From the NCBI GenBank assembly GCA_028714095.1, contig JAQTMY010000001.1, positions 445,172 to 509,171 on the forward strand: DNA of 64,000 nucleotides, written 5' to 3'. Below the pieces are notes generated by a model that was not told where the DNA came from, made no database searches, and saw only the letters and a program-made list of their open reading frames with translations. The stretch is from Candidatus Nanoarchaeia archaeon (GTDB taxonomy: Archaea; Nanobdellota; Nanobdellia; SCGC-AAA011-G17; JACPNG01). Shown piece by piece: positions 8,661-34,953 of this stretch (position 1 is its first letter; each line of letters starts with the position of its first letter). The translations under genes were made by a program, and so were the position numbers.

Positions 8661-8709
8661 AAGGAGGATAAAAATGCCTTCTTTTAACCATAAAAATGGT
8701 AACAACTAA
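8661..8709 (+). promoter_or_regulatory. Leader with strong ribosome-binding site and 11-codon overlapping ORF before the kinase gene
   Basis: AAGGAGG at 8661-8667 sits 6 nt before an ATG at 8674 that opens MPSFNHKNGNN and stops at 8709. The kinase ATG at 8696 lies inside this short ORF in another frame, and has no ribosome-binding site of its own. A TATA-like TTTATAAA at about 8625-8632 would place the transcript start near 8655. Either the kinase is translated by coupling to the leader peptide, or an indel separates the start from the gene. Confidence 0.5.
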
Positions 8710-10549
8710 TGCCTTATTGAAATTTCCTGAGGAGAGGAAGAGTGGTATAGATGGTGCAGTAGAGGAAATTCTAAATGCAAATGGGTACACAGTCCTAGAA
8801 AAAAAAGAATCAGAGGGAGCTACGATGACCCTTTATGATGTTGAGTATCGTAAGGGATCAACCAAAAAAAGAAGAATAGCTAAGGTTCCTAAAACGTTTA
8901 AGAATGAAAACATAACAGCTAAAATCATTTTTTCCAAGGGTAATCTAGATAACAAAGGTGTTTTAATTCTAAATGAGGTTAAACATCCTAATATTGTTGA
9001 AATTTATGATTCCTTTAACCTAGGAGATAGGTCTCTTGTAATAGAAGAAGAGTATGATGCAATCTCCCTTGAAGATTTAGTTAAGACTGCAGGACCAATT
9101 ACAGATCCAATCAAGATTGGAAATATTTTTTCTCAATTGATGAGCGCAGTTCAATACCTACATGAAGAAGAAAGGATTTTACATAGAGATATCAAACCAT
9201 CAAACATCCTGATCGGAAAAGATAATTATAATACAGTTAAACTAACTGACTTCCAGACTGCTGTAAAAATAGAAGACTTAAATGAAAAAGCAATACCTAC
9301 AAGAGGGGGTACAGCATATACAGATCCTTACCTATTAAATTCATTGATGAGAGGATTTGACTCCTGCGGTTCAATGAGTACAGATATGTATTCTGTTGGA
9401 GCTACTTTGTATTTTGTTCTTACAGGAGAAAAACCATTTGATTATTCATTTGATACATCTCCAACTGGAAAACCAATCAAGACAAAATTCGGGAAATTAA
9501 AAATCATATTAAGAGATGGTGAAGACCAGATTGATGAGATTGATATAGATGAACATAACAAACTTCTAAATGAAAAATTAAAAAATGTCCCAAAGAGATA
9601 TAGAGGTCTTGTAAGAGATCTTATGGAGGTTGGAAAAGATCCATATAATTTTGATAACGCTTATATGGCTCATTCAGATTTTATAAGGGATCTGGGATCC
9701 GCAACAAAGAAAATTCCAATAAGATGGGAAAAAGTTCTTGATAATATTAAAATATGGTCTGCATGTGCAGGAATAATGGCCGGATTAGTAGTAGGAGCAC
9801 AATATATCAGGATTTCTGATAAGAATTTAAGGGAAAGAGAACCAACAGTTTTTGATACATTAACAAGCACAAGATTTGTGGATGGAAGTTTAGAATATAT
9901 TACTCAGGATAAAAATAAATTGGCTTTGGAAGCTCTAACCCCTTATTTTAAAGAAATAAAGCAAGATATTAAAAAATTTGATAAAAAAAATGAAGAAGAA
10001 ATGTTTTCAGTTGAATTTACTGATAGTCGTGTAACCCGCCTGGGTAGTAGAATTTCATATTCTTTGATGAGAAGTATATTAATGGAGCCAGATCAGAATA
10101 AGAAGAGGGAGTATGGAATGCTTAGACTTGAAACTTCTTTAGCTCCAGTACCTTTTGTGGCAAGGTTCACAGGAGGAAATCCTATTTACTTCTCGTCTAT
10201 AGACAATAATCAACAGATAGGTTTAGGATTACAATACCTAAGAGGATGTATGGGAGTTAATACTGAACTGGAAGATATCCTAGTTACATATTTCTGCGAC
10301 TCAACTGATGAGGTATTTGAAGCAAGAAAAAAAGCAGATAGTCCTTATTACTTTGATAGGGAAATGAAAATAGAAGGTTCAGATAATTCCATGGTTGTAA
10401 AAGGATACAGAGAATATCTAAGTCCTGTAAAAAGACATATGATTGACAGAGCAATGGCTTTATTCTACATTACAGACAATGAAGGAAAGGTTCACACAGA
10501 ACTCTTAGATTCTAATAATAGGCCAGTCAAGGAACTTGATGCCAAATAA
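8696..10549 (+). CDS. Membrane-anchored eukaryotic-type Ser/Thr protein kinase
   Basis: Hanks-type kinase domain over about residues 30-340: VAIK-like Lys in RIAKVPK, catalytic loop HRDIKPSN near 160, an activation segment with DFQ instead of DFG, a GTAYTDP element resembling the P+1 loop, and STDMYSVGATLYFVLTGEKPF as subdomain IX. The glycine loop is weak. A single membrane segment follows (IWSACAGIMAGLVVGAQYI, about 352-370), then 245 residues of unrecognised sequence, probably outside the cell. The 3' end overlaps the convergent PhoU-type gene by 58 bp. The SD-led short ORF at its start is unusual. Substrate unknown. Confidence 0.85.
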   Translation: MVTTNALLKFPEERKSGIDGAVEEILNANGYTVLEKKESEGATMTLYDVEYRKGSTKKRRIAKVPKTFKNENITAKIIFSKGNLDNKGVLILNEVKHPNIVEIYDSFNLGDRSLVIEEEYDAISLEDLVKTAGPITDPIKIGNIFSQLMSAVQYLHEEERILHRDIKPSNILIGKDNYNTVKLTDFQTAVKIEDLNEKAIPTRGGTAYTDPYLLNSLMRGFDSCGSMSTDMYSVGATLYFVLTGEKPFDYSFDTSPTGKPIKTKFGKLKIILRDGEDQIDEIDIDEHNKLLNEKLKNVPKRYRGLVRDLMEVGKDPYNFDNAYMAHSDFIRDLGSATKKIPIRWEKVLDNIKIWSACAGIMAGLVVGAQYIRISDKNLREREPTVFDTLTSTRFVDGSLEYITQDKNKLALEALTPYFKEIKQDIKKFDKKNEEEMFSVEFTDSRVTRLGSRISYSLMRSILMEPDQNKKREYGMLRLETSLAPVPFVARFTGGNPIYFSSIDNNQQIGLGLQYLRGCMGVNTELEDILVTYFCDSTDEVFEARKKADSPYYFDREMKIEGSDNSMVVKGYREYLSPVKRHMIDRAMALFYITDNEGKVHTELLDSNNRPVKELDAK

Positions 10550-11406
10550 AAATTTCTTATAGAACTTCCTAAATGATAAAGAATAATATTTTCTTTGCTT
10601 CCTTTCTGAATTGAATCATATAAATCGTGATAAATTGCATTATTCCCTATTCTATGAACCTCTTCAATCTTTGAAATATCTTTTTTCTGATATGCTTCAT
10701 GCAATAAGCTAAATAATTTTTTTAGTTTTGTTATGATTTCAAAATTATTGAATTTTACATTGTTTTTATCTAAAAACCTATTAAGATGATATAATTCTCT
10801 CTGACCATGAGTCATCAAGTGAGCAAAACTCCAGAATAAATTGCAAGAACTGCCAAACAAGTTTCTTTTAACCATAACTCTTCTGCAGAAATTTTCATAT
10901 TTATATATCCTATAGCTTATTTCCTCATAGCTTTCTAAGCTAGGCTCTCCTTTTAATCTCTTCTCTGTATAATCGATAAGATTTGAGATATTATAGAAGA
11001 CCTTTTGGAACAAATTTTCAAACTGATCAGCAGATGGCTCAGTTATATTCTCAATAACAACTTTATTCTTTTCCTTTTTTGTTATGTCAAAACCTAAAAC
11101 ATAGTCCTGGATTGTCTGGTTTATTGCTTTGTAAGCCTTTTCATCATCAAATTCAATTTCTACTAGGTCATAACCTGCCCTATAAGCATTAATCACAGCA
11201 GCTCTTATTATTGAATCTGAAGAGTCTTTTAGTTTTATTTTGGTTGATTTTTTTGATGAACTAGTCTCTTTGGAGATAATTATTTTGTCTTCATCTTCTT
11301 CAACCTCAACATCATCCCCTTTTTTAAGATTGAATTTCTTAGTCCATTTGCTTGGCAGAGATATCATTAAGGTAGATTCTCCCTGCTTTACGACCTTTCT
11401 TCTCAT
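10492..11406 (-). CDS. AbrB-PhoU family phosphate-type regulator
   Basis: N-terminal SpoVT/AbrB-like swapped-hairpin DNA-binding domain (VVKQGESTLMISLPSKWTKKF, residues 4-45) joined to two PhoU-like helical bundles. This AbrB-PhoU fusion is the usual archaeal form of PhoU, linked to phosphate uptake regulation, though no Pst transporter is present here. The C-terminal part (SIRNFYLASSSLTGLLL) is helical. Convergent with the kinase gene and overlapping it by 58 bp. An inverted repeat 53 bp upstream may be its control site. Confidence 0.82.
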   Translation of the reverse strand: MRRKVVKQGESTLMISLPSKWTKKFNLKKGDDVEVEEDEDKIIISKETSSSKKSTKIKLKDSSDSIIRAAVINAYRAGYDLVEIEFDDEKAYKAINQTIQDYVLGFDITKKEKNKVVIENITEPSADQFENLFQKVFYNISNLIDYTEKRLKGEPSLESYEEISYRIYKYENFCRRVMVKRNLFGSSCNLFWSFAHLMTHGQRELYHLNRFLDKNNVKFNNFEIITKLKKLFSLLHEAYQKKDISKIEEVHRIGNNAIYHDLYDSIQKGSKENIILYHLGSSIRNFYLASSSLTGLLLESKSSV

Positions 11407-11458
11407 AATACCTTAATCCTTTTGTACTATTTAAATCTTTCCAAATTGTATAAACATT

Positions 11459-11479
11459 TATACTAATATATATAGTATA
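11459..11479. promoter_or_regulatory. Inverted repeat upstream of the PhoU-type gene
   Basis: TATACTA and TAGTATA arms (7 bp) around a 7-nt AT spacer, 53-73 bp before the PhoU-type start. It could be an operator or simply promoter AT-rich sequence. It also marks the left margin of the bacterial-like block. Confidence 0.35.
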
Positions 11480-11637
11480 ATCAAAAAGTTTAAATTATAT
11501 TTATTGATGTTGTATCTCACAAGAAGTAACAAAACCTAACCCAGGTTTATCCAGAAAGTATTTTTCAACTACAAGTAATAATCTCCGTCGATTTTAAATG
11601 AATGGAAAACCTGAAAAAACCAAAACAAGGAGACCAT

Positions 11638-12639
11638 ATGTTTAAAAAAATGCTTCTTATCTTGCTTTTAGTCTTCACAGTAAATGCTATGGCCGATTGG
11701 ACATTCAAGATTGAAGACAAGGCCGAAGACGGGAACCGTCTCAGGACTACGTTCTCAAACGCAGACTGGCTGGTCAGATTTGACCTGAACTCTCCCAGCC
11801 ACGAAACTCAAAGTGAGTGGATGATTAATCGAAACTTCAATTTCGATGAAAATTCGACTTTGACGATCTCACTTCAAGGAGATGTTCGGGATTCGAAAGG
11901 AAAAACCGGATTTGCGATTGGCGAGATTTTTGTTTACAAATTCAACAAAGATACTTATTTTAAGCTATTTCAGCTTAACGCATTCAAAGATGGAAATCTC
12001 CCTTTCTACAAACTCGGCACCGCCCTATTTTCAAAAACCCTTGACTTCGAATGGTTAATCATTAAACAGTCCGATGATCGTATCGAACACAGAAATTACA
12101 TTACCTATCATGATAACCTTATCCATTTCTCCGTTGGCAAGGCCAAAAAGGATTCAATGGAGATGGTATTCGTGACAAAGGAAACCCTCGGATTATTTGC
12201 CTATAGCAATTATGATTGGCAAAAAAAAGAGTTTGTTCTGAACATGACAAATTCTTTCACAAATCCGGACTTCGATAACATTTACTGTATGTCTATCGGC
12301 AGACTTGCCACAACCTTGTTGACGCTTGATACCGTTCCAGTTAACTTCCCGATATTCACGAGTTATCTGAATTTTGGAGAATTAACACATAACTTCAACA
12401 TGAAGATAAATGAAGAAACCTTCGAACTCTTGAATGAGTTTGGGTTTGCATTTACTAAAAACTTTATGCTTGGAGCTGGTGTTTTCTTCGAGAAAAAGAT
12501 AGATGAAGATCTGAAAGTAACTCCGGTTATTTCGTTTGCGTTTAACATACCGCTTACAGACGCTGAAATGATACATTTAGAGGGAACGTGGAAAGACGGG
12601 AACTCAAAAGTTTATGCTTACTTCATGATGAGTCTGTAG
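11638..12639 (+). CDS. Exported beta-rich protein of bacterial outer-membrane barrel appearance
   Basis: 333 aa from the ATG at 11638, chosen because AAGGAG lies 8 nt upstream and it starts a clean signal peptide (MFKKMLLILLLVFTVNAMA, cut before DWTFK). The rest shows alternating polar/apolar strands with many aromatic residues (WLVRFDL, YFKLFQLNAF, VFFEKKIDEDLKVTPVISFAF), as in bacterial outer-membrane beta-barrels; no family named. Codon use is clearly richer in C and G than the flanking archaeal genes, and a bacterial intrinsic terminator follows directly. An archaeon without a bacterial outer membrane has no obvious place for it, so transfer or assembly chimera must be considered. Confidence 0.75.
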   Translation: MFKKMLLILLLVFTVNAMADWTFKIEDKAEDGNRLRTTFSNADWLVRFDLNSPSHETQSEWMINRNFNFDENSTLTISLQGDVRDSKGKTGFAIGEIFVYKFNKDTYFKLFQLNAFKDGNLPFYKLGTALFSKTLDFEWLIIKQSDDRIEHRNYITYHDNLIHFSVGKAKKDSMEMVFVTKETLGLFAYSNYDWQKKEFVLNMTNSFTNPDFDNIYCMSIGRLATTLLTLDTVPVNFPIFTSYLNFGELTHNFNMKINEETFELLNEFGFAFTKNFMLGAGVFFEKKIDEDLKVTPVISFAFNIPLTDAEMIHLEGTWKDGNSKVYAYFMMSL

Positions 12640-12646
12640 TCGTTGT

Positions 12647-12687
12647 GGGCCCACCTCTGTTTTTACAAGTGGGCCCTCCCTTCTTTT
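12647..12687 (+). terminator. Intrinsic terminator after the barrel-like gene
   Basis: Perfect 8-bp stem GGGCCCAC/GTGGGCCC with a 14-nt loop, starting 8 nt past the stop codon and followed by a pyrimidine-rich tract (TCCCTTCTTTT). GC-rich hairpin plus T tract is a bacterial-style signal and is rare in the rest of this window. Confidence 0.75.
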
Positions 12688-12757
12688 CTGATTTTCTTTG
12701 AACATCTTTTCATAATGTGTTGAAAGAAACTCAGTTTACCTTAAGGAGGAGGTATGT

Positions 12758-13210
12758 ATGAAAAACCAAAGGAGTCTTAATGCTTTTCCTGCAGAGTATT
12801 GGGACTATATGAGAAGGGTAGTGATTTACATTAAAGAGGATAAGTTATTGGACCTCGACTGTGCAATAGCAAAGGCAGAAGATATATTCAAAGCAACCAA
12901 TCCTTTGCAAAATATACTGAGAGTTTCAGACATGGTTAAAATAAGAGAAATCTTACAACAAATTGTAAAGCATTCCCATTTGATTTTTCTTATAACTATG
13001 TATCTTCTTGCAGATGATTACCAAAAAGGGATTCTCGCTAAAAATGTAAAACTAAGCCCTAAATGCGACTGGGAGTTCGAAATTGAACTTATAATAGAAA
13101 ATCTGAATAAGTGTATCACCGAATCCAAAATGGATGATACCCTCATTCTACCTTCTAAACTCAAACTCAGAAAAAACCCATTCAAGAAATGGTGGCAGCT
13201 CTGGAAATAA
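12758..13210 (+). CDS. Hypothetical soluble helical protein (150 aa), bacterial-like block
   Basis: No family recognised. Preceded by a very strong AAGGAGGAGG site and followed within 20 bp by an intrinsic terminator, so it forms a monocistronic unit of bacterial style. Predicted mainly helical (NPLQNILRVSDMVKIREILQQIVKH), with one weakly hydrophobic segment (LIFLITMYLLADD) and a basic, Trp-rich C-terminus (FKKWWQLWK) that could touch a membrane. Reading frame and spacing are convincing; function unknown. Confidence 0.72.
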   Translation: MKNQRSLNAFPAEYWDYMRRVVIYIKEDKLLDLDCAIAKAEDIFKATNPLQNILRVSDMVKIREILQQIVKHSHLIFLITMYLLADDYQKGILAKNVKLSPKCDWEFEIELIIENLNKCITESKMDDTLILPSKLKLRKNPFKKWWQLWK

Positions 13211-13226
13211 CTGCTTACCTCCTGTA

Positions 13227-13258
13227 CGAACCCTGATATTTATCGGGGTTCGTTTTTT
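13227..13258 (+). terminator. Intrinsic terminator after the 150-aa gene
   Basis: CGAACCCTGATA and TATCGGGGTTCG form an 11-bp stem with one G-U pair and a short loop, followed immediately by TTTTTT. A textbook bacterial rho-independent terminator in otherwise archaeal surroundings. Confidence 0.85.
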
Positions 13259-13319
13259 ATTAAAGATTAAATGGTCTTATTTTTGATTCTAATTTAACTA
13301 TAAAAACAAAAGGAGCACT

Positions 13320-13637
13320 ATGGATAAAGGAAGTTTGATCCTTCTGATAGGAATGATCCTACTCTTCTGTTCTCTTGCCCCTCAGATATACAGGATATTC
13401 AAGAGAAAGAGTGCACATGACATCTCAGTTATAAGAACATTCATGTCCTTTATTTCTTGTGTTCTTATGGTCTGGGGTAGTATAGAAACAAAGTCCAATT
13501 TAATTTATGTTATCCTTAATTCTGGGATGGGGGTAGGATGGATCCTGATGATTGTTGGAAAACTATTGTATGGTTTTCCAGGTAAAACTAAAAATAAAAG
13601 AAAAGGGGATATGTTATGGAAGAGAAAACCGAAGTAA
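13320..13637 (+). CDS. PQ-loop / SemiSWEET-like membrane protein
   Basis: 105 aa with three hydrophobic helices: SLILLIGMILLFCSLAPQIY, a middle segment FMSFISCVLMVWGSIETK and VILNSGMGVGWILMIVGKLLYG. The PQ pair in LAPQIYRIFKRKSAHDIS matches the PQ-loop motif of SemiSWEET-type half transporters, which dimerise to move small sugars or related solutes. SD AAAGGAG lies 6 nt before the ATG. The last 22 bp overlap the start of the next gene, so the two are probably co-translated. Substrate is not predictable. Confidence 0.7.
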   Translation: MDKGSLILLIGMILLFCSLAPQIYRIFKRKSAHDISVIRTFMSFISCVLMVWGSIETKSNLIYVILNSGMGVGWILMIVGKLLYGFPGKTKNKRKGDMLWKRKPK

Positions 13638-14113
13638 AAGAACAGGAAAGAGTTGAACTTATCCTTGATTTGGAGAGCACGGGTAGCCCCCACTCTGATG
13701 AGGTCATAAAGCTAGGGACTCATGGAATAAGAAAAAGCTATTGGTTCTTGGCAGATATTATTTATACCTCCTTCATTGGTCCTCGGCTAAGGTTAGAGCG
13801 TATGGATGATAAAAAATTTACCAAATACGCAGAAACCACCATTCGAAAAATCAAATCCAGCTTCTCTTTTATGATTATTACTACACAAAAAACTCCAGAT
13901 AGTTACCTAGAAATCCTTATGTTATTATTTGGAGAACATAAAGAATGCGGTTCCATCGAAGATCGACCAATCAAAGGGATAATTCACCTCGGACTACGTA
14001 ACGGTTTAAAATCTTTCTACTGTGAAGGTGATTCCTCAAAACTCAGCAAAGCGCTTGAAGCAATATATTATCATAAAGAAGAACCTGAGGAACCCGAAGA
14101 GCAAAAAGGTTAA
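13616..14113 (+). CDS. Hypothetical protein (165 aa), bacterial-like block
   Basis: No family recognised. Starts with an acidic N-terminus (MEEKTEVKEQERVELILDLE), a mixed alpha/beta centre (SFSFMIITTQKTPDSYLEILMLLFG) and an acidic tail with a Glu-Pro repeat (EEPEEPEEQKG). It overlaps the PQ-loop gene by 22 bp and has AAAAGGGG upstream. An intrinsic terminator follows 33 bp after its stop, closing a two-gene operon. It may be a soluble partner of the membrane protein, but that is inference only. Confidence 0.68.
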   Translation: MEEKTEVKEQERVELILDLESTGSPHSDEVIKLGTHGIRKSYWFLADIIYTSFIGPRLRLERMDDKKFTKYAETTIRKIKSSFSFMIITTQKTPDSYLEILMLLFGEHKECGSIEDRPIKGIIHLGLRNGLKSFYCEGDSSKLSKALEAIYYHKEEPEEPEEQKG

Positions 14114-14146
14114 ATAATCTCTAAAAAAATTCTCTCCAAAAAATTC

Positions 14147-14172
14147 GCAAGTCTTTATGACTTGCATTTTTT
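14147..14172 (+). terminator. Intrinsic terminator closing the bacterial-like block
   Basis: GCAAGTC-TTTAT-GACTTGC hairpin (7-bp perfect stem) followed by ATTTTTT. Third such element in 1.5 kb; marks the right end of the block, just before the converging EF-1A terminator. Confidence 0.8.
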
Positions 14173-14229
14173 ATTAATAATGTATATATAAGTATTATAA
14201 ACTAAATCTAAAATAAAAACAAACCTAAA

Positions 14230-32838: not shown

Positions 32839-33480
32839 ATGAAAATAGACAAGTCAGATACAATCTTGATATTGACTATCATAGTCTTTGTTGGAATATT
32901 CTTAGTGCTCAGTCCAAGCTATATTGGTTATCAAACCCAGGAAATTGAAGAATATGAATGCGGAGACAGTATATGCACAAGCCCTTATGAGGATGAGATA
33001 ATATGCCCAGAAGACTGCTCATCCAGTATAAAAATTCCTTATGGATTAATTGTAATATTAATTATTGTTCTAATTGCTGGTTTAATTTATTTTAATTTAT
33101 ACAAAGGAAAGAAAGATTTGAGAGAACTTACAAAAGGGAGAAAACCCTATACAAACATCCAGGATTACCAGAACCTCAAGAATTTTGTAACTAAAGAGAT
33201 AAATAATAACCTGAAATTTAAGGAAATTACACTTAAACTAGCAAACAAAGGATGGACAAAAAAACAGATTGAATATGTTTATGATGATGTCTTGTGGGAA
33301 AAAAGAAAAGTTCTTATTGATATAACCCCTAAACAAACAAAAGATTCTTCTTCACTAATTGATTATTTAAATAAATGTAAAAACCTAAATCTAAGCAAGT
33401 TTGTTGTAAAGTTTAAACTGCGTGAAAAAGGCTGGGATAAAAAGACAATAAATGAAGCTCTTAAGAAGGTTAATTATTAA
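32839..33480 (+). CDS. Membrane protein with Cys motif and two UBA-like C-terminal repeats
   Basis: 213 aa. Two membrane helices (ILILTIIVFVGIFLVLSPSYIG and LIVILIIVLIAGLIYFNLY) flank an outer segment CGDSICTSPYEDEIICPEDC, with four cysteines in a CxxxxCxnCxxxC arrangement likely forming disulfides. Inside are two related helical repeats ending in KGWTKKQIEYVYDDV and KGWDKKTINEALKKV, which resemble small UBA/CUE-like three-helix modules. No known family; this architecture recurs in DPANN. Divergent from secF, 75 bp apart. Confidence 0.75.
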   Translation: MKIDKSDTILILTIIVFVGIFLVLSPSYIGYQTQEIEEYECGDSICTSPYEDEIICPEDCSSSIKIPYGLIVILIIVLIAGLIYFNLYKGKKDLRELTKGRKPYTNIQDYQNLKNFVTKEINNNLKFKEITLKLANKGWTKKQIEYVYDDVLWEKRKVLIDITPKQTKDSSSLIDYLNKCKNLNLSKFVVKFKLREKGWDKKTINEALKKVNY

Positions 33481-33504
33481 TTACATATATATACTTAGTT
33501 TTAA

Positions 33505-33529
33505 GACAGAAAGGGGCTTCCCTTCTGTC
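33505..33529 (-). terminator. Hairpin after the 169-aa minus-strand gene
   Basis: GACAGAA-GGG ... CCC-TTTCTGTC forms a stem of about 10 bp with a one-base bulge, 8 nt beyond the stop of the gene at 33537. The following TTAAAACT is only weakly T-rich, so the terminator role is possible but not certain. Confidence 0.45.
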
Positions 33530-33536
33530 ACTAATC

Positions 33537-34046
33537 CTAATCTTTTGAAGATTCCTGTTCCTTTTGAGATTCAAAATAAATACACAATACCAGTTCAACC
33601 TTTTTTGAGGTATTCTTGTCTTCTTGATATTCAACTTTAACCTTGATATGGAATACTGCAACTTTCGGGGTAAGGCTGGTTATACCTACTTCAGAAAGAC
33701 CCTTTAAATCACTAAATTCTTTTTGAATACCCGACTTTAAAACTTCAGCATATATGAGATCTAGTTTATCGGGTCTAGCAGGATAAACATTGATTATAGA
33801 TCTATAACCATCCATCGTATCATCTATCTCAGTTACTTCAAATCTTAATTCCGCTGAACTTGAGTGAGGGTTAAAGTTATTAGAGTCGAATTGCTTGCTA
33901 AACACCTGCATTAGTTTAATAACTAATGAGTAAATGGTCTCAACAGCAAACATACGATCTTTAATGCAATGATGTCCTTTAAACTCCCCCTCCTTTTTGG
34001 ATACAATCAACTTAGTCTTAATTGACCTATCATCACTCATCATCAA
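33537..34046 (-). CDS. Hypothetical protein (169 aa), bacterial-looking expression signals
   Basis: No family recognised. Mixed alpha/beta sequence with a helical region (RMFAVETIYSLVIKLMQVF) and several beta strands (RFEVTEIDD, RSIINVYPA, AVFHIKVKVEYQ, VELVLCIYF). The start has AAAGGAGG 7 nt upstream, a hairpin precedes it and another follows it, as in the 11.6-14.2 kb block. A repeat of the neighbouring regulator's box lies 137 bp upstream. Possibly acquired and under that regulator's control; both are inferences. Confidence 0.7.
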   Translation of the reverse strand: MMMSDDRSIKTKLIVSKKEGEFKGHHCIKDRMFAVETIYSLVIKLMQVFSKQFDSNNFNPHSSSAELRFEVTEIDDTMDGYRSIINVYPARPDKLDLIYAEVLKSGIQKEFSDLKGLSEVGITSLTPKVAVFHIKVKVEYQEDKNTSKKVELVLCIYFESQKEQESSKD

Positions 34047-34064
34047 CCTCCTTTAGGTTTTTTC

Positions 34065-34084
34065 GGGTACGCCGTACCCTTTTT
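34065..34084 (+). terminator. GGGTAC/GTACCC hairpin with T tract
   Basis: Perfect 6-bp stem with GCC loop followed by TTTTT on the plus strand. On the minus strand it is a leader hairpin 15 nt before the SD of the 169-aa gene. No plus-strand gene ends here, so its use as a terminator is unclear. Confidence 0.5.
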
Positions 34085-34182
34085 GTTTTAATTTATTCTT
34101 TCGAATAATAGAAACTAAAAACAACTCCACAATTTACTAAGTAATAATCTTTTAGAGAACAAAAACCTATATCAAATTTTTC

Positions 34183-34196
34183 CCTAATATGTTAGG
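34183..34196. promoter_or_regulatory. Second copy of the CCTAATAT-TTAGG box, at the regulator stop codon
   Basis: CCTAATATGTTAGG differs by one base from the perfect palindromic box in front of the same gene. It overlaps the stop codon of the HTH-10 regulator and lies 137 bp before the 169-aa gene. Confidence 0.5.
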
Positions 34197-34848
34197 TACT
34201 AGTAGAACTAAGGACATTTGGGATAATCTTTTTTTCTGCTTTAGAAAGATGTTCACAAAACGTGGGGGCTGAGACACCCACAATCCTTGCAAGTTTTTTC
34301 ATATTTGTTTTTTTTGGGAAATCATAATATCCATTTTCAATAGCTAATCCTATTGCTCTTTTCTGGCTAGGTGTCAAATCAGGCATGAGATGAGGATAAT
34401 AAACATCAGTCAATTTAGTCTGCTGAATATTTAAGACCTTTACATCCTCAAAATCTTTTTTTAGATTTTTAATAAATTCTGTTAGATTAAATTTGTTCCA
34501 TGATGCAACTTCCCATGTTTCGTAACCTTCTCGGTCTACAAAGACCGGTTTTACAAAAATTAGTTTATCAGTTTTAAATGTAGATGGAACATGTTCCTTT
34601 CTAACCTCTAGGCAAAAAAAAGAATCCCCCGCGATTTCAAAATTTTCAATTCTCTTATCCTTTTTTATATCTTTAATGAAATTATTAATTGCTGCAGGTT
34701 CTCCGTAAACCGTATGAATCTGAGGGGAGTAAGTTACCCCTTTTTCTTGGAATATATTAAATGAAATCCCAGCATCAATAACACCAAATTTCTTACATCT
34801 GGTTCCAATTATACAATCGTGTTTTAGTTTGATTTTAGTGGTCCACAT
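34192..34848 (-). CDS. HTH-10 (bacterio-opsin activator-type) transcription regulator
   Basis: 218 aa. C-terminal DNA-binding domain LTPSQKRAIGLAIENGYYDFPKKTNMKKLARIVGVSAPTF, residues 155-200, is the archaeal HTH-10 (Bat-type) signature. The N-terminal 150 residues, starting MWTTKIKLKHDCIIGTRCKKFGV, form the ferredoxin-like sensing domain of this family, with two Cys at 13 and 18 and one near 64. A palindrome ACCTAATATATTAGGT starts 5 bp before the ATG and probably mediates autoregulation. It may also control the gene downstream. Confidence 0.85.
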   Translation of the reverse strand: MWTTKIKLKHDCIIGTRCKKFGVIDAGISFNIFQEKGVTYSPQIHTVYGEPAAINNFIKDIKKDKRIENFEIAGDSFFCLEVRKEHVPSTFKTDKLIFVKPVFVDREGYETWEVASWNKFNLTEFIKNLKKDFEDVKVLNIQQTKLTDVYYPHLMPDLTPSQKRAIGLAIENGYYDFPKKTNMKKLARIVGVSAPTFCEHLSKAEKKIIPNVLSSTST

Positions 34849-34852
34849 AAAT

Positions 34853-34868
34853 ACCTAATATATTAGGT
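34853..34868. promoter_or_regulatory. Perfect 16-bp palindrome, likely operator of the HTH-10 gene
   Basis: ACCTAATATATTAGGT lies between the TATA-like ATTTATATT (about 34871-34880, minus strand) and the ATG at 34848, exactly where a bound regulator would block or adjust initiation. A near-identical box is at 34183-34196. Confidence 0.7.
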
Positions 34869-34953
34869 CTAATATAAATACCTTCCTATTTAGATCCTAT
34901 TAAGTTTTAAAATAGAAACCTTTATAATTTAATTAAATGTGAGACAATTCTAT

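Follow-up and report, generated by a model that had tools for sequence, protein, structure and literature searches.

The window analysed here, a stretch of 64,000 nucleotides (G000:C1:445172-509171), comes from an 853-kb archaeal genome in two contigs that is 94% complete. Between rpsJ and the EF-1A gene it holds a foreign-type gene island with four ORFs (11638-14113). The features of this block are listed in Table 1, together with those of a second insert in the window. A Ser/Thr kinase gene (8696-10549) and a gene for an AbrB-type protein (10492-11406, minus strand), which overlap tail to tail, lie at the same rpsJ/EF-1A junction in the window; they are absent there from the two congeneric genomes G001 and G002 and were left out of the block.

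Table 1. Features of the block between rpsJ and EF-1A and of the second insert (window coordinates)
Feature	Position	Strand	Remarks
Left edge, degenerate inverted motif	11458-11481	-	10 bits; PWM scan and spacing check
Candidate archaeal-type promoter for ORF1, CAAAAAGTTTAAATTA	11482-11497	+	by eye
ORF1	11638-12639	+	333 aa, exported, no family; homologue only in G002, same junction
Hairpin after ORF1, interior	12647-12676	+	by eye; motif-free 3' side
ORF2	12758-13210	+	150 aa orphan
Intrinsic-terminator-like hairpin and T-run, interior	13226-13259 (hairpin 13226-13253)	+	without motif behind
ORF3	13320-13637	+	PQ-loop (SemiSWEET-like) membrane protein, PF04193, E 1.2e-8
ORF4	13616-14113	+	165 aa orphan; start inside ORF3
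Edge terminator, hairpin and T-run of the composite element	14147-14172 (hairpin 14147-14165)	+	terminator scan
Motif GTATATATAAGTATTA, right block edge	14182-14197	+	9 nt past T-run
Second insert, edge hairpin (weak T-run) and motif GTATATATATGTAATT	33479-33530	-	20.7 bits; PWM
Second insert, orphan	33537-34043	-	168 aa
Second insert, HTH_10 regulator	34192-34848	-	PF04967, E 2.6e-17

The original prediction had described four genes, with GC-richer codon choice in the first, strong ribosome sites and three hairpin terminators, and this description was borne out. Regarding codon choice, the GC3 of ORF1 is 0.46, above that of all 60/60 conserved host ORFs; higher values than those of ORF2 and ORF3 were found in 1/60 host ORFs, and in 15/60 in the case of ORF4, for which a truncated frame was counted. 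GGAG-type ribosome sites precede ORF1, ORF2 and ORF3. For ORF1, the ATG at 11638, which follows AAGGAG, is to be preferred to 11602. The hairpins at 13226 and 14147 were recovered by a terminator scan of the first 20 kb of the window (17 sites, with 11.2 +/- 3.4 expected), where they rank 1st and 3rd; the hairpin at 12647, found by eye, has a weak pyrimidine tail and a 14-nt loop that lies beyond the loop limit of the scan. The PQ-loop gene was also confirmed, with ORF4 overlapping it, and ORF3 gave weak SemiSWEET matches in the PDB. In the case of the predicted exported beta-barrel protein, a Sec-type signal peptide can be seen by eye in ORF1, and the barrel is only suggested by the many antiparallel strands of an AlphaFold model (mean pLDDT 36.8). 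PADLOC gave no defence-system match above noise on the block, its kinase models matching only the neighbouring Ser/Thr kinase. The edges of the block are better placed at the motifs, at 11458-11481 and 14197. The left copy has a T5 run in front of it, at the distance common to the other sites, and no GC-rich hairpin; because of this weak inverted copy, the block seems to be bounded by outward-facing motifs.

To place the block, three species of the genus were compared, all represented by MAGs. In G001, rpsJ and EF-1A lie ~80 bp apart with no insert. In G002 (Candidatus Nanoarchaeia archaeon STA_79, Sandtown), a sister MAG assembled independently, the same junction holds a single gene for a 338-aa exported protein with 24-26% identity to ORF1 (E ~1e-26), and this gene carries the same edge motif as the block; the neighbouring resident proteins are ~65-93% identical in this comparison. 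When a genome collection was scanned with the two-sequence ORF1 alignment, G002 alone was returned (84,980 genomes, pattern-limited). As the homologue of ORF1 stands at the same place, the junction is occupied in two independent assemblies. This bears directly on the assembly join that the original prediction had offered as an alternative, i.e. a chimera of archaeal and bacterial DNA. The composition does change sharply and the genome is a MAG, but an independent MAG has a homologue, likewise with this edge motif, at the same junction, and across the three assemblies the edge element turns up at numerous other, unrelated junctions. A chimera was therefore rejected on the strength of the sister genome, and we regard it as extremely improbable. 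Unrelated small inserts were also seen at this junction in other genera of the family (G005, G006, G009 and G011; loci L036-L039), which makes it a general insertion hotspot.

The first clue to a wider pattern was a 33-bp second match of the block in its own genome, found by nucleotide search behind the terminator of a foreign-looking gene. The 16-mer GTATATATAAGTATTA occurs in exactly 3 copies in G000, each behind the terminator of a foreign-looking gene, and in further copies in G001 and G002. A PWM was built from 22 training sites, and the search with it covered 607 kb in G000 (~71% of the genome), 515 kb in G001 (~64%) and 87 kb in G002 (~10%). Above 12 bits it gave 39 matches in 1.2 Mb, 17 of them outside the training set, and none in a 437-kb Markov control. 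A few matches are coding or have no clear hairpin; nearly all others stand behind a hairpin and T-run. The distance from the end of the T-run to the motif core, a repeated GTAT with a 10-bp period, is exactly 9 nt in 21 of the 35 aligned sites and 10-11 nt in 7. The composite element consists of a hairpin, a T-run, 9 nt and GTATATATNNGTATWA, is found at ~35 places in the 1.2 Mb, and lies almost always behind a non-conserved insert with different, GC3-richer genes. The hairpin and T-run themselves are kept, and the hairpin sequence is free. Weaker motif copies with the right spacing also stand behind non-conserved DNA, and the four whose upstream DNA is conserved lack a GC-rich hairpin.

Some of the sites scored with the PWM had also been used to train it; a pattern search across the class served as an independent check. 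In the three genus genomes, 16 distinct places match the strict pattern T5-N(3-12)-GTATATATWWGTATWA; the 278 other genomes of the class gave a single match, and the reversed control gave one as well. In 322 kb of a sister genus, none of 11 strong hairpin-T sites is visibly followed by the motif. The composite element is genus-specific and found at the outward-facing 3' edge of inserts. In IMG/VR, T5-N-GTATATATAAGTATTA has one exact match, on a 142-kb contig (L180:7213-7239, IMGVR_UViG_3300028948_000598), which may be due to chance. Two near-identical motif copies of G001, C2:154760 and C9:134 (L124 and L125), lie beside a tRNA gene at contig ends and are possibly one collapsed or duplicated insert site.

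The block had been seen as unique; instead, it is one of dozens of small intergenic inserts (~0.4-3 kb) which are dispersed over the genomes and form a genus-wide class. Insert boundaries were taken from DNA alignments at 70-80% identity and are accurate to some tens of bases. Full sites in G000 with an empty counterpart in G001 include C1:363593-364174, C1:79670-80692, C1:88101-88591, C2:156745-158734 and C1:478652-480068, the last one being the second insert of the window (33481-34897; ~33479-34897, minus strand, by its edge element). In such pairs the motif comes and goes with the insert, and no target-site duplication is evident by eye. Among 33 clean indels between G000 and G001, the element is present in 8 and absent in 25. 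The 8 element-bearing indels together with the window block have a GC content of 0.345, against 0.307 in the 25 without the element (P 6e-4), so that element-bearing inserts form a class apart from ordinary accessory genes. Additionally, GC3 is 0.35 in insert ORFs and 0.27 in host ORFs (P 1e-10). Ribosome sites precede 42/55 insert ORFs and 15/60 host ORFs, a comparison in which the choice of insert starts favoured such sites; if every possible start is accepted for the host ORFs, their value rises to 25/60.

The proteins encoded by the inserts include PKD or PEGA lipoproteins, an outer-membrane-like protein of 182 aa (L152:1282-1830, AlphaFold pLDDT 37), an M48 peptidase that has a signal peptide and a pair of related HTH_10 regulators, besides many orphans; some of the largest precede weaker, variant motif copies. 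The HTH_10 gene of the window has relatives at L057:9421-10092, in another insert (41% identity), and at L146:7901-8545 (57%). Three inserts of 0.9-1.7 kb carry the edge element and no convincing ORFs (L056:7436-9096, L141:8196-9458 and L129:6846-7755). They are strongly folded, two of them stand at the same host site in two species, and they are possibly ncRNA or decayed genes. Rfam found only tRNAs on these loci, and their folding (z -4.8 to -7) is no evidence for ncRNA, as a coding insert reaches -8.7. Across the three genomes, the coding sequences of inserts fold slightly better than those of the host (mean z -0.67 vs -0.20, P 0.002).

Further insight was gained from orthologous sites that are occupied in two species. 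At site A (G000 C2:182380, G002 C13:8535), the 5' leader, terminator and motif are alike, and the proteins look unrelated, one being soluble with 120 aa and the other having 175 aa and a signal peptide. Site C (G000 C1:113122, G002 C1:96878) has a TATA-type promoter, the CTCTGGTC terminator and the motif in both species, and the genes differ; G002 carries a pair of divergent units here, and an outward-facing motif closes each of them. Sites A and C point to an exchange of the coding part, or its very rapid divergence, between kept edges, repeatedly within the class.

Altogether, the bacterial type of the inserts is supported by composition, ribosome sites, hairpin terminators, the PKD/PEGA lipoproteins and the outer-membrane-like protein. 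The composition test for bacterial transfer showed GC3 and ribosome-site use to be foreign. Of the recent transfer from a bacterium that had been proposed, the foreign, bacterial-type character holds (GC3, ribosome sites, hairpin terminators, proteins of sister inserts), and a recent date and a bacterium as the source are no more than proposals. A scan of bacterial genomes for ORF1, by pattern, gave no bacterial donor; the case for transfer is consequently made from composition and protein type, and both the bacterial source and the import route are putative. A viral or plasmid origin was rejected, as no relatives were found of ORF1, ORF2 or ORF4 in IMG/VR, of ORF2, ORF3 or ORF4 in phages, or of ORF1 in plasmids; the M48 peptidase of a sister insert had no plasmid match either.

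What, then, could the element do? In terminators of RNA polymerase I, the enzyme is halted within a T-rich tract by a roadblock protein whose site lies 15 bp further on, and the RNA is released by a hairpin of arbitrary sequence (PMC12366685). The composite element has this type of layout, with a hairpin, a T-rich tract and a downstream binding-type motif at fixed spacing. We tentatively read it, at a little short of an even chance, as a transcription terminator that would insulate neighbouring resident genes. A putative DNA-binding protein on the motif would stall RNA polymerase in the T-run, the hairpin would then release the transcript, and neighbours such as the convergent EF-1A gene would be shielded from read-through. 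This is consistent with the position of the motif, always on the 3' side of the insert and facing outwards with most 5' ends motif-free, with its graded strength, as expected of a binding site, and with the Pol I-like geometry, in which the hairpin and T-run are kept and the hairpin sequence is free (PMC12366685). However, the two interior terminators of the block have no motif, the element is not found with conserved resident genes, no donor was found, and the motif comes and goes with the insert, as a mobility signal also would. The free hairpin, T-rich tract and nearby protein-binding-type site resemble the Pol I terminators with a Reb1/Nsi1/TTF1 roadblock (PMC12366685), from which the element differs by its place in an archaeal genome, on protein-coding foreign inserts, and by a binding protein that is only putative. 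With bacterial intrinsic terminators it shares the GC-rich stem-loop followed by a T-run; unlike these, it is archaeal and genus-specific, and a conserved DNA motif of 16 bp comes after the T-run at a fixed distance of 9 nt.

Some of the same observations could also be explained if the element were the 3' end, i.e. the attachment site, of a mobile gene-cassette system, in which the host XerA, or else an enzyme provided in trans, would insert units made up of promoter, gene, terminator and motif at intergenic sites and exchange them there. The motif would then mark the insert edges and be missing from empty sites, as observed, and the motif-free interior terminators, the unrelated genes between kept edges at orthologous sites and the outward motifs on both sides of some inserts would fit as well. 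Each genus genome has a single tyrosine recombinase, which passes the archaeal XerA model NF040815, but this XerA is resident and syntenic, and the integron integrase model TIGR02249 matches it below cut-off and in two pieces. Moreover, most 5' ends have neither motif nor half-site, and target duplications are not seen by eye. Pairs of the attC boxes RYYYAAC / GTTRRRY occur at 0/34 elements (background 18/1000), the units are mostly dispersed over the genome rather than lined up in tandem arrays (attC spacing below 4 kb), and there are no dif-type 11-bp inverted arms around a 6-8-bp spacer at the elements (7.5 matches vs 7.3 in shuffled contexts). A serine recombinase, a Y1 transposase and a reverse transcriptase are also missing from the genus genomes (no PF00239, PF01797 or PF00078 in G000, G001 and G002), and an enzyme acting in trans is possible. 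We consider such a cassette system a genuine, if somewhat doubtful, possibility.

Regarding known systems of this kind, integrons and CALINs, including archaeal ones (PMC9668308), likewise have small, mostly orphan units with a hairpin-containing 3' end and acquire genes across domains, but here the units are dispersed and single, attC boxes and an IntI over the cut-off are missing, and the hairpin is a terminator of free sequence. The Xer-dependent dif modules (pdif) of Acinetobacter (PMC6449649) are also small units with short AT-rich sites, and the only tyrosine recombinase here is XerA; they differ in their 11-bp inverted arms around a 6-8-bp spacer, whereas our inserts lack such arms and mostly have one site. 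Integron attC, Xer dif, serine recombinase, Y1 transposase and reverse transcriptase were all tested and not supported.

A simpler view would require no dedicated mechanism: ordinary accessory-gene hotspots would take up foreign genes by homologous recombination via conserved flanks, the element being just a preferred terminator that stays with the site. The conserved edges with differing contents at sites A and C and the lack of the element in 25/33 clean indels between the two sisters are compatible with this, but the element is specific to inserts distinct in GC and ribosome sites and keeps a fixed geometry at unrelated loci, so that we find this explanation unlikely.

In conclusion, the element, read here preferably as a terminator, is possibly a new kind of terminator or of cassette end. 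A bolder proposal, which we hold to be rather doubtful, is that the genus runs an undescribed gene-capture platform, in which bacterial-type genes would be swapped at intergenic expression sites, between an archaeal promoter and the composite end element (hairpin, T-run, 9 nt and GTATATATNNGTATWA), the latter serving as both terminator and recombination boundary. One open question is how archaea that are small and probably symbiotic take up bacterial genes and express them. The shared DNA element gives a handle on it: the imported units of a genome can be listed with its help from the sequence alone, and the prediction is either an archaeal terminator of the hairpin-plus-roadblock kind, with a Pol I-like layout, or a new system of cassette mobility.
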